Shown: in pieces, positions 7,746 to 54,595 of the stretch
How the letters are laid out: every line of letters begins with the position of its first letter
Numbering within the stretch: the stretch's first letter is position 1
DNA from: Arbacia lixula
Lineage: Eukaryota; Echinodermata; Echinoidea; Arbacioida; Arbaciidae
Direction of reading: 5' to 3'
DNA length: 64,000 nt
Assembly: GCA_963669155.1 (NCBI GenBank)
Contig: OZ022580.1
Coordinates: 25,975,299-26,039,298, forward strand
Notes under the pieces: model-generated
What the model saw: the letters and a program-made list of their open reading frames with translations, nothing else
Told to the model about the DNA's origin: nothing
The model's database searches: none
Program-made: the position numbers and the translations under genes

Positions 7746-8364
7746 TCAAAATCAAGTCAGGAGTTTGATCCTATTATGTAATCCTATCCTTCCAGATTAG
7801 ACTTTTTATCATAAATGTTATTCAAGGAAATGATAATAACTACATTTTCTATCGTAGTCTAATTCAAGTCTAGTCAACGCTCTTTCTGCCAGTATTGACT
7901 GCTATGCACTTACGTTCAAGCGCATGCATATAATTATCATTGAAGAACAACTGTGTATCAAACGAAATGATGGTTAGTAAATGCACATTGATCAGCATTT
8001 CGTGGTTCATTCATTGCCCTGGCTCGTTTAAGTGACATTCACTTTTGGATGCTTGCACTTCTAAACATTAAAGTTGTCATATCGTATGTTGAACATTTTA
8101 TGAGAGTTATTGATGCAGAAGTCCTAAATTATGCCAAAATTTCATAGATATGTCACAATCATGAATTTCATGAGCATCTCATATGGGTGTCAACTATACT
8201 GGAACAACTTACTCGCTACGTGCCTGGGTTAACTATTAGTGAAATAGCTTAAAATTAAAGCTTAAACAGTAATTAGGGTTACACTAATCATATACTTAGG
8301 ACCAGACTTACATGTAAGTATGATCATGTCATATCAGATTATATAATGTTAGGGAAAGGATTAT

Positions 8365-8612
8365 TAGGAGATTTTTCCAGCTGGTGTTTTCAACTGGTCC
8401 AACTGTTTTCAAGCTGATGTTCAACTGGTGTTTCCAAGCGGTATTTAACCGTTTTTTCCAACTTTTTTTTTTCAATTGGACCAGTAATCCCATTTCAAAA
8501 CCCATGGTTCCCTGTTGACTCAACTGGTTCAACCAGTGTTTTCAACAGCAGATATTCAACTGGTTTTCCAAGTGGTGTTCAACTTTTTTTCCAAATGGTT
8601 TTTCCAACTGGG
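8365..8612 (+). repeat. CCAACTGG-type word array, plus orientation
   Basis: Degenerate units of about 15-17 bases around TTCAACTGGTGTTTCC repeat across the segment. Nine CANNTG hexamers fall in roughly 235 bases, where about one is expected by chance. The enrichment follows from the repeat unit; a binding function is not shown. Confidence 0.65.
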
Positions 8613-9504
8613 TATATGACACCCAAGAAGTAATTTCAAGGTACGTGGCAAGTAGCGGTAAATACTACATTACCCAAAATTCATGGAGTACCGTTTTGCC
8701 ATACCTATGGATCCCAAGCTAGTTTGATTTCAGGATACAAGAAACCAATTATTTAAAAGTGATAAATCATTATAATCAAATAAAATGGGGACATAATGAT
8801 GAAAGCAAAATGATGTATCGCGACTGGCCGTACTCAGTGGTAATAGCATGTACATCATGTAGGCCTACCCCTTGCCTTTAATGTCATGCTTTGCGTGCAT
8901 TTGGTCGTAAGTGTAAAAGCAAATACACGTGTAGTGTAGGCATGGACACTGATTGGTATCCAAACAAAACCTTGCTCTTTGTTACTCGATAACGCACGTA
9001 CCAGTCCATTGAATAGAGTCAGTAACCAAATGCAAATTCATGCACCGACATCATGCAACCCAACAACACACTCTTCTAGGCTTACTACTCTAGAAAAGCT
9101 GACCGGATTTTAAGAAGTTGTACACACACATTACGAATTGGAAAGATTACAGACTATACCTCCGAAGAAACGTACATACTGATGCGCATGCTTAAAAGCA
9201 AACATAGCCTACATACAAAAAGCATCCCAGAACACACAATCACAGACATTTTTCATGGAAGATACATATATACATGGATAGCCTATCATATGCGTCTTAC
9301 TTTCTGACAAGTACTTTAGAGACTGACAATCGGCTGGAGAGAAGCCCCAGTTTATGTATCGGGCTTTCTGGAAAGTGTTATGGAGATGGCGAATCGGCGA
9401 GCGCGAAGCCTGTGGCCGAGGGCTCGCCGATGTCCTTCTCAACTACACGATTGATGGTACTATAGTACTTCGGATAGGCTAACAAATACAAACATAGAAA
9501 GGAG

Positions 9505-20170: not shown

Positions 20171-20466
20171 CGACGATATCAAGAATTCGACTTCTTGATA
20201 TCAAGTATTTTATTTCTTGATATCACGAATTCATTTCTTGATATCACGAATTCATTTCTTGATATCAAGAATTGCCATTGCTTGACTACACAAAACCATT
20301 TCTTGATATCAAGAAGTCGAATTCTTGATATCAAGAAATGGTTTTGTGTAGTTAAGCAATGGCAATTCTTGATATCAAGAAATGGAATTTCTGATATCAA
20401 GAAATCGAAATCTTGATATCAAGAAGTCGAATTCGTGATATCAAGAAATCGAATTCGTGATATCAA
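20171..20466. repeat. 22-bp-phased palindrome array around GATATC
   Basis: Twelve GATATC cores start at 20,175, 20,197, 20,219, 20,240, 20,261, 20,305, 20,327, 20,371, 20,393, 20,415, 20,437 and 20,459. Steps are 21-22 bases or exactly 44. Most cores sit in the 16-base palindrome TTCTTGATATCAAGAA. The array is itself a large imperfect inverted repeat centred near 20,319, whose inner arms share CCATTGCTTGACTACACA with one mismatch. Open frames across it are artefacts of stop-poor units. Class unknown. Confidence 0.95.
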
Positions 20467-20496
20467 GAAATAGGAATAAACGTTAAAACGGCTTGC

Positions 20497-20640
20497 CATA
20501 ATTCCGAACGTTACGCGACAAATGCTCGGATTAACGAACCCTTTTTCGTTTTCGGATTAACGAGCATCGAGGTACAGGCAATTTACGTGTTTCGGAATTA
20601 CGAACCTTCGGAATAACGAACCTTCGGAATATCGCACTGT
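20497..20640 (-). repeat. TTCCGAAGGTTCG short-unit repeat, copy 2
   Basis: Inverted copy of the block at 612-775, with the same core and the same terminal 16-base words. It lies only about 30 bases from the end of the GATATC array. Confidence 0.75.
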
Positions 20641-21627
20641 AACCGTTAATTCGTTCTCTATTGACCAGCGTATTAGTGGCCGTGGATTTTTTTCCCACCC
20701 AGATACTGAGCAACGCACGACACGAAGGCTGTGCTGAATATTCATATTCCTTATACGTCGCAAATAAACCACAACCATTTGGTTAGTGCGGTTCCATGGC
20801 AACTTTTGACATCCTTACTTGACACGGGGTCACGAGCAACGGCAGCTAGGTTAATAATTTACTCTATGAAATCTACTTCTCGTCAGTTTTCTTCAAATAT
20901 TTACTTGGTACTTCCCATATATGATGTGTTTGTGAAACACTCACTAAGAATTGAGTGCTCGTAACAGGATGTCATTAAAGTCGCATAAAATATCCAAACG
21001 CTATCCTCCCGGACTAAGGGACACGCACATCACTTCGAAAATAGTATCATATCCTAACATTGCATGTTAGGATGGAGTTATGATAGAAAACATAGTATTA
21101 AAAGCGGTATCACTGTTATTATCATTACAAGTTGTAAGCTAGTTATAACGAGTTAAATGAAACAGAACACATGATTCCTTGCTTCTAATAGAACCTAAAG
21201 TTAATCAAGCGTGATAAATAGAGTTGATGTGTGAAGGTTATAGCAATGAGAATGACTGGGTTCATGACGTAGAGTAAAGTAAAGTTAACGCAAGAGAGTC
21301 TATAGCTTTTTGACCATCCAGCTTTATTGCTCATCTCGTCGTATTCCATGCATGCGAACAATTGGCAGGGTGAAGACGGTCGACTCCACATCATAGCAAA
21401 CGATGGGTATTTCTTCTCTGCATGTTCGTAGGTGGACTAAATAATGTTTGAACCGAGAACAGTGCTGCATTGTATTAATTACTCGAGGTTATGATCGATA
21501 TACCTTAACAACGGATATAGCGTTCATTGGTTATTCATTATGAAGGAGGGAGTAATACGCTCTACTTGCGCCGATGGTAAAAGTGTACGGGTGTGACTGT
21601 CTGGATGTATTTGCGGGTATGGGTGTG

Positions 21628-54395: not shown

Positions 54396-54595
54396 NNNNN
54401 NNNNNNNNNNNNNNNNNNNNNNNNNNNNNNNNNNNNNNNNNNNNNNNNNNNNNNNNNNNNNNNNNNNNNNNNNNNNNNNNNNNNNNNNNNNNNNNNNNNN
54501 NNNNNNNNNNNNNNNNNNNNNNNNNNNNNNNNNNNNNNNNNNNNNNNNNNNNNNNNNNNNNNNNNNNNNNNNNNNNNNNNNNNNNNNNNNNNNNN
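54396..54595. other. Assembly gap, 200 N
   Basis: Exactly 200 N between the two duplication units. Its size need not reflect real distance. The 47 bases right of the gap (54,596-54,642) do not match the sequence left of unit 1. Confidence 1.

Follow-up and report, generated by a model that had tools for sequence, protein, structure and literature searches.

What has produced, in the genome of the sea urchin Arbacia lixula, a ladder of GATATC palindromes that keeps a 22-bp period and folds about a single centre? The original prediction, made on the window (the whole stretch of 64,000 nucleotides analysed here), offered a hairpin-propagated repeat or an array of sites for a dimeric DNA-binding protein, and named dispersed copies with defined ends as the mark of a mobile element. 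We found that the array is a 5'-truncated copy of a dispersed cut-and-paste transposon, and neither a unique regulatory array nor a satellite. We also consider it likely that this copy is a decayed transposon of the foldback or MITE type, whose family is moved in trans by its own IS5/PHIS-type transposase.

The array and its repeat unit

Between positions 20175 and 20464 the window holds 12 of its 26 GATATC hexamers, which start at 20175, 20197, 20219, 20240, 20261, 20305, 20327, 20371, 20393, 20415, 20437 and 20459. The successive steps from core to core are 22, 22, 21, 21, 44, 22, 44, 22, 22, 22 and 22 bp, and this phase was reached in none of 100,000 trials in which the ten inner cores were placed at random between the two outer ones. 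The longer motif TTCTTGATATCAAGAA, with up to three mismatches allowed, has 12 sites in the window, 11 of which lie in the array, against a mean of 1.0 and a maximum of 4 in the shuffled window. Tandem Repeats Finder describes the array as 13.6 copies of a 22-bp period, and folding of the single-stranded DNA gave z = -26 relative to shuffles. Pairs of GATATC are centred at 20318.5-20319.5, and the exact dyad lies at 20318/20319 with 66-nt arms that are 97% complementary; ungapped symmetry drops to 61% at 130 nt, and gapped symmetry covers nearly the whole array. The steps, the random placement and the dyad therefore confirm that twelve cores stand on a 22-bp ladder folded about one centre.

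The consensus of the repeat unit, GATATCAAGAATTCGAATTCTT, was built from 207 units, taken wherever the next core lay exactly 22 bp away in 33 two-tip relatives (described below) and in the window copy. When rotated, it is identical to its reverse complement over all 22 positions, of which the six core bases are fixed by the way the units were selected, and it has two dyads, GATATC and TTCGAA. Since the unit is self-complementary, a tandem array of it is mirror-symmetric at every core; local palindromes and global symmetry are thus one property, and the three independent levels of order that had been proposed collapse accordingly. The single centre of the window array is due only to two inverted spacers and to directional variants of the unit. 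The spacer, S, is a conserved directional sequence of 29 bp, TTGCCATTGCTTGACTACACAAAACCATT, which takes the place of one core and so accounts for the 44-bp steps. Allowing up to five errors, S occurs 64 times, in 32 of 34 elements, and a forward S stands ahead of a reverse S in 19 of the 34. It had also been suggested that the sites share one helix face; at an assumed 10.5 bp per turn, each 22-bp unit advances by 34 degrees, so that a common face would extend across neighbouring cores only and not along the whole array.

The copy in the window

What is left of the element is a non-autonomous, 5'-truncated copy of about 326 bp at 20175..20500. The predicted extent of 20171..20466 holds for the array and stops short of the element's end, as the inverted-repeat tip continues at 20473-20500. 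From its left the copy comprises five GATATC cores at 20175..20266; spacer S on the forward strand at 20272..20300, in place of one core at the first 44-bp step; two central cores at 20305..20332, flanking the dyad; spacer S reversed, on the reverse strand at 20337..20365, at the second 44-bp step; five further cores at 20371..20464; and, on the reverse strand at 20473..20500, the 3' terminal inverted repeat tip, which is the reverse complement of TATGGCAAGCCGTTTTAACATTTATTCC with one mismatch and ends in CCATA. With the outer half-unit and the 5' tip gone, the left array starts mid-unit at 20175. With five cores on either side of the spacer pair, the copy was probably once a short symmetric one, like those of 340-370 bp elsewhere in the genome, and we infer that it is now a dead remnant with no host role.

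By the 6-bp rule of the family (see below), ATTCCG at 20501..20506 is the presumed right copy of the target; the left copy was lost with the 5' end, which leaves a single copy of the target at this element. The remainder of the repeat that hosts the insertion, made of 16-bp TTCGGAATAACGAACC units, extends over 20501..20644 on the reverse strand and matches 602-745 in inverted orientation (94% over 145 aligned columns). This similarity starts right after CCATA, and the element had therefore inserted into that repeat, the left part of which is likewise missing here.

A dispersed family with defined ends

The assembly holding the window (607 Mb, 590 contigs) contains 1,890 exact occurrences of the 16-bp TTCTTGATATCAAGAA, against none of the reversed control. 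With up to two mismatches, the 28-bp tip TATGGCAAGCCGTTTTAACATTTATTCC occurs 299 times forward and 294 times in reverse, the control again being absent, and the resulting number of family copies is a lower bound. An intact end consists of this 28-bp tip, starting with TATGG, followed by the self-complementary 22-bp units, usually with the directional spacer S. We assembled 33 distinct copies with two tips, from 100 bp to 10.7 kb long, allowing up to six substitutions and counting identical copies once. They were drawn from 65 loci, mostly the first-listed perfect tips on contigs C1-C5 and C7; this sample is biased to well-kept tips and does not include copies in which a second tip was unrecognizable, L005 and L006 among them.

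Loss of phase in other copies had been named as a possible refutation of the ladder. Of the 320 gaps no longer than 140 bp in the 33 copies, 300 deviate by at most 1 bp from a multiple of 22, and the phase is thus kept. TATGG stands at the 5' end of 29 of the 33 copies, CCATA at the 3' end of 30 and both in 26. Most copies (28 of 33) measure 100-832 bp, and their tips match those of the larger, gene-bearing copies save for one base. The number of cores varies from 1 to over 20. In short copies the two ends are almost or quite joined, which accounts for the large palindrome. A search for tips that share the first 14 bases but differ at all of positions 25-28 returned three places, all of them with the family's letters, and two joined units gave no match in viral contigs.

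The 6 bp on either side of the element are identical in 15 of the 33 copies and agree at five of six positions in another 13. In the rest, namely L011, L065, L034, L025 and L047, they agree at four (two copies), three (one copy) or one (two copies) of the six bases; an alternative 3' end is possible for L047, whose flanks would then agree at four. When flanks of different copies were paired, six of six matched in 8 and five of six in 72 of 1,056 pairs, the latter background of about 7% being due to the biased target. Other boundaries or lengths gave a match in at most two of the 33 copies (0-2), with two exceptions that the 6-bp rule itself entails, the four inner bases of the six (21 copies) and the six together with the adjoining A/T (five copies). 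A second set, located by exact tips, comprised eight of nine further tip pairs (C20:1841900-1846043 was left out); all eight have identical 6-bp flanks as well as TATGG and CCATA, and five of them bracket the transposase gene. The targets mostly read YGNNCN: among the 15 identical ones, YG stands at positions 1-2 in 14 and C at position 5 in 14. Empty sites are also available, since a 917-bp copy in L007, nested within another family sequence, has CGTGCG on both sides, and uninterrupted paralogous sites at three distinct places have a single CGTGCG each.

Two other descriptions of the ends were considered and rejected. A TA duplication with a terminal inverted repeat of TGGCAAG is contradicted by the duplication of six bases outside the TA and by the empty sites, which hold one CGTGCG and no TATA. 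An 8-bp duplication is likewise discarded, as the five of 33 copies with eight matching bases show the six bases plus neighbours.

Many dispersed copies with a common spacer, defined ends and target duplications bear out the mobile alternative, and with hundreds of such copies the idea of a single conserved, bound locus is not supported. Nor is there support for a need to invoke propagation through hairpins, which had also been envisaged, on top of ordinary transposition by terminal inverted repeats.

A transposase gene in the larger copies

A transposase gene of the IS5/PHIS type is found in larger copies, of about 9.5-10.7 kb, which share the ends and the 6-bp duplications of the family. L014 and L015 overlap and together make up a single 10.7-kb copy, whose inverted ends, about 700 bp long, are 86% alike; its gene is split over two frames, with matches to THAP-like, HTH_Tnp_4 and DDE_Tnp_4 domains. 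An unsplit frame of 500 codons in L066 matches DDE_Tnp_4 (E 2e-41), HTH_Tnp_4 (4e-16) and THAP (6e-4), the THAP match being partial and, at 21.0 bits, below the Pfam cut-off of 23.9. The NCBIfam model for IS5 family transposases gave E 6e-5, its 22.5 bits lying far below the cut-off of 140. A coiled coil is predicted at about residues 136-185 (the Pfam matches there are below cut-off), and a comparison of the transposase with solved structures returned no match.

Ten loci hold the second half of the gene at a protein identity of at least 96%, and all ten have a family tip; among them no near-identical gene copy was found at a place without one. At six of the ten the reading frame of the gene runs uninterrupted for about 490-500 codons; the open stretch is shorter at C1 and C21, and stops or a shift disrupt the frame at C7 and C20. 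Two more distant relatives of the gene, with 61-63% identity, lie on C9. Both tips are present at eight gene loci (C1, C7, C12 twice, C13 twice, C20 and C21), and one tip was found at each of the two on C14. In the second C12 copy, the 3' tip lies in L068 and the 5' tip 16 kb upstream of the gene; at copy position 1485-1490 it is interrupted by about 11 kb of other DNA. Sequence adjoining the gene on both sides was found at the same ten loci, at some of them split in two, among the 40 candidates scored per search. Parts of it that occur elsewhere, again among the 40 candidates scored, comprise a gene-less piece near a tip on C20, two dispersed repeats, and pieces on C4 and C12 that have diverged. 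Those of the other open frames in the coding copies that were scanned gave no match over a Pfam cut-off. Among three gene copies dN/dS ranged from 0.5 to 1.8, with one value undefined, few changes and one copy shifted over part of the compared region; the copies are too young for this ratio to inform on selection.

Not every interior is related to the coding one. Three copies of 5.9, 2.5 and 2.1 kb (L046:1007-6941, L047:993-3451 and L048:989-3119) combine the family ends with interiors unrelated to those of the coding copies, and no transposase domain was found in the 20 frames scanned, half of them from the longest copy and half from the two shorter ones. The family ends can therefore carry passengers, and the gene could be one of them.

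Relation to known transposons

Superfamilies are filed by the length of the target duplication, the letters of the ends and the type of transposase, and these characters are expected to agree. In this family the ends and the duplication point to IS3EU, and the gene to IS5/PHIS. IS3EU elements are described with TA..TA ends and 6-bp duplications in the pertinent part of PMC10045372, and those of rust fungi with TAYGG..CCRTA in that of PMC12730594; the family shares all of these traits. It differs from IS3EU in that its only recognized transposase is a DDE_Tnp_4 protein of the IS5/PHIS type, no IS3-type one having been found in the frames examined. With ISL2EU, a group of the PHIS superfamily, it shares the architecture of the transposase, namely THAP-like, HTH and DDE_Tnp_4 (as outlined in PMC4482050 and PMC9179366), the THAP and IS5 scores being below cut-off in our case. 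ISL2EU elements are, however, described in PMC4482050 as duplicating AT and as having, in most cases, YqaJ as a partner gene, whereas the family duplicates 6 bp and has no YqaJ partner. For the IS5/PHIS kind, duplications of 0, 2 or 3 bp are given in PMC12730594, and the length for NuwaII is left between 3 and 5 bp in PMC4482050, in both cases in the portions dealing with these elements. Because it fails a tested feature of each, the family is filed under neither IS3EU nor ISL2EU/PHIS. A duplication of 6 bp may be possible for the DDE_Tnp_4/IS5 fold, since in bacterial IS5-family elements duplications range from 2 to 9 bp.

The family also has the hallmark of foldback elements, long inverted ends containing tandem repeats. 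The TU foldback elements of sea urchins, whose long inverted ends contain short tandem repeats, resemble the present family by their description; their units are of 15 bp and their duplications of 8 bp, unlike the 22 and 6 bp found here. Galileo encodes a P-type transposase, unlike that of the family. Long inverted repeats with tandem arrays, and modular, variable copies, are shared with the Tetris and Galileo foldback transposons, and the tandem repeats in the terminal inverted repeats of Galileo contain extra THAP transposase sites, according to the portion of PMC4079207 on these elements. The family is set apart from both by its 6-bp target duplication, and from Tetris also by its self-complementary unit of 22 bp, versus about 220 bp in the same account, which cites a work of 1983 on sea urchin foldbacks.

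The motif TTCTTGATATCAAGAA had no occurrence in the open-access literature, and in the titles and beginnings of abstracts examined we met no description of the family, which may already have an entry in Repbase; the two papers that contain CTTGATATCAAG concern, by their titles, cell fusion and viral entry. We read the family as new, set apart from IS3EU and ISL2EU by the descriptions of these groups, and it is probably a new variant among transposons.

Alternative explanations

The most serious alternative is that the family is simply one of IS3EU and owes its mobility to an IS3-type transposase encoded elsewhere in the genome, the IS5/PHIS-type gene being a passenger or the old remains of a nested ISL2EU element. 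The published IS3EU traits listed above (PMC10045372, PMC12730594) favour it, as do the mutually unrelated interiors between the same tips and the fact that a dispersed repeat of about 1 kb forms part of the same interior as the gene. A helper may also exist elsewhere, the genome-wide search for rve having been swamped, with 150 of 794 candidates scored. Yet no rve domain was found in the frames examined, the gene stays open for some 490-500 codons at six of ten loci, and each of the ten has a family tip. As to a nested ISL2EU element, no PHIS-like ends with an AT duplication surround the gene in the ranges searched, which held no exact inverted pair of 12 bp; inverted pairs matching at 12 of 14 bases with a duplication of 2-3 bp numbered three, none of them AT, where by our estimate one or two are expected. 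The genome holds ten YqaJ matches (12 candidates scored), none of which lies inside the ten gene-bearing loci, although two transposase relatives of 39% identity, on C5 and C8, have YqaJ at 2.7 and 3.3 kb. We therefore regard the IS3EU explanation as worth keeping in mind and, on balance, rather improbable.

A regulatory array kept by the host, with phased palindromic sites for a dimeric host factor, would agree with the conservation of phase and palindromes across copies; we hold it to be highly improbable, given hundreds of dispersed copies with tips and target duplications, and a window copy that is truncated and sits inside another repeat. A satellite or simple tandem repeat, palindromic by chance or through replication slippage, would fit the 22-bp period reported by Tandem Repeats Finder and is scarcely credible, since the arrays are short and the same tips delimit them at either side, with no long head-to-tail arrays lacking defined ends, the spacer runs forward and then reverse in more than half of the elements, and target duplications flank the copies. 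Defined ends, dispersal and target duplications reject both.

Putative mechanism and implications

Under the transposon reading that we prefer, the IS5/PHIS-type protein would move all copies in trans, and the arrays are most likely binding sites for it. The dimeric protein on palindromic sites that had been predicted may thus plausibly be the element's own transposase: the predicted coiled coil suggests a dimer, which would suit palindromic units and might bind them as such. By analogy with the THAP sites of Galileo, as presented in the corresponding part of PMC4079207, the ladder would give each end several sites and so could aid the recognition and pairing of the two ends. The arrays would have spread by tandem expansion inside the ends. 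A strand-symmetric unit can be duplicated or inverted with no change in what the protein would see, and arrays varying freely between 1 and over 20 cores would follow from this symmetry.

With slightly more doubt than belief, we propose that the family represents an undescribed group of transposons that combines a THAP transposase of the IS5/PHIS type with 6-bp YGNNCN duplications, ends convergent on those of IS3EU, and a strand-symmetric ladder of 22-bp operators that keeps its meaning when lengthened or inverted. If the gene is indeed the mover, the PHIS group varies more in the length of its duplication than has been described, and assignments of families to IS3EU based solely on their ends may be wrong. 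The self-complementary unit also offers a clean natural setting in which to ask how transposition depends on the number and phase of binding sites, because copies with 1 to over 20 cores coexist in one genome.

Other repeats in the copies and in the window

Several further repeats accompany the elements. Upstream of the gene, the coding element contains the dispersed repeat of about 1 kb (L066:1746-2750), which has copies of 81-87% identity on many contigs (40 of 3,692 candidates scored). The coding copy on C1 contains a tandem repeat with a period of about 157 bp (L015:4719-5527, or 8019-8827 of the joined copy); both C12 copies lack the stretch 7912-9069. At L069:4100-4160 (G000:C12) two transposon copies stand head to tail, separated by one 6-bp CGCCCG and bordered on the outside by CGCCCG as well, the outcome of either a tandem duplication or an unequal exchange between ends. 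The insert of about 11 kb in the second C12 copy, from L069:6076 to L067:1653 (G000:C12:14566375-14577652), has the inverted ends CCCTTGTAAAAAAG ... CTTTTTTGTAAGGG and is flanked by TATA on both sides (its inside was read for the first 1.65 kb); it looks like another transposon nested there.

In the window, the 200 N at 54396-54595 are an assembly gap that yields false perfect palindromes in a symmetry scan. The stretches 602-766 and 20501-20644 are copies of another palindromic repeat with 16-bp TTCGGAATAACGAACC units; for a 21-bp seed of this repeat the genome has 1,932 forward and 1,893 reverse matches at no more than one mismatch. Among the first 100 places listed there are several inverted pairs about 100-170 bp apart, and this repeat looks like a second, more abundant foldback-like family.
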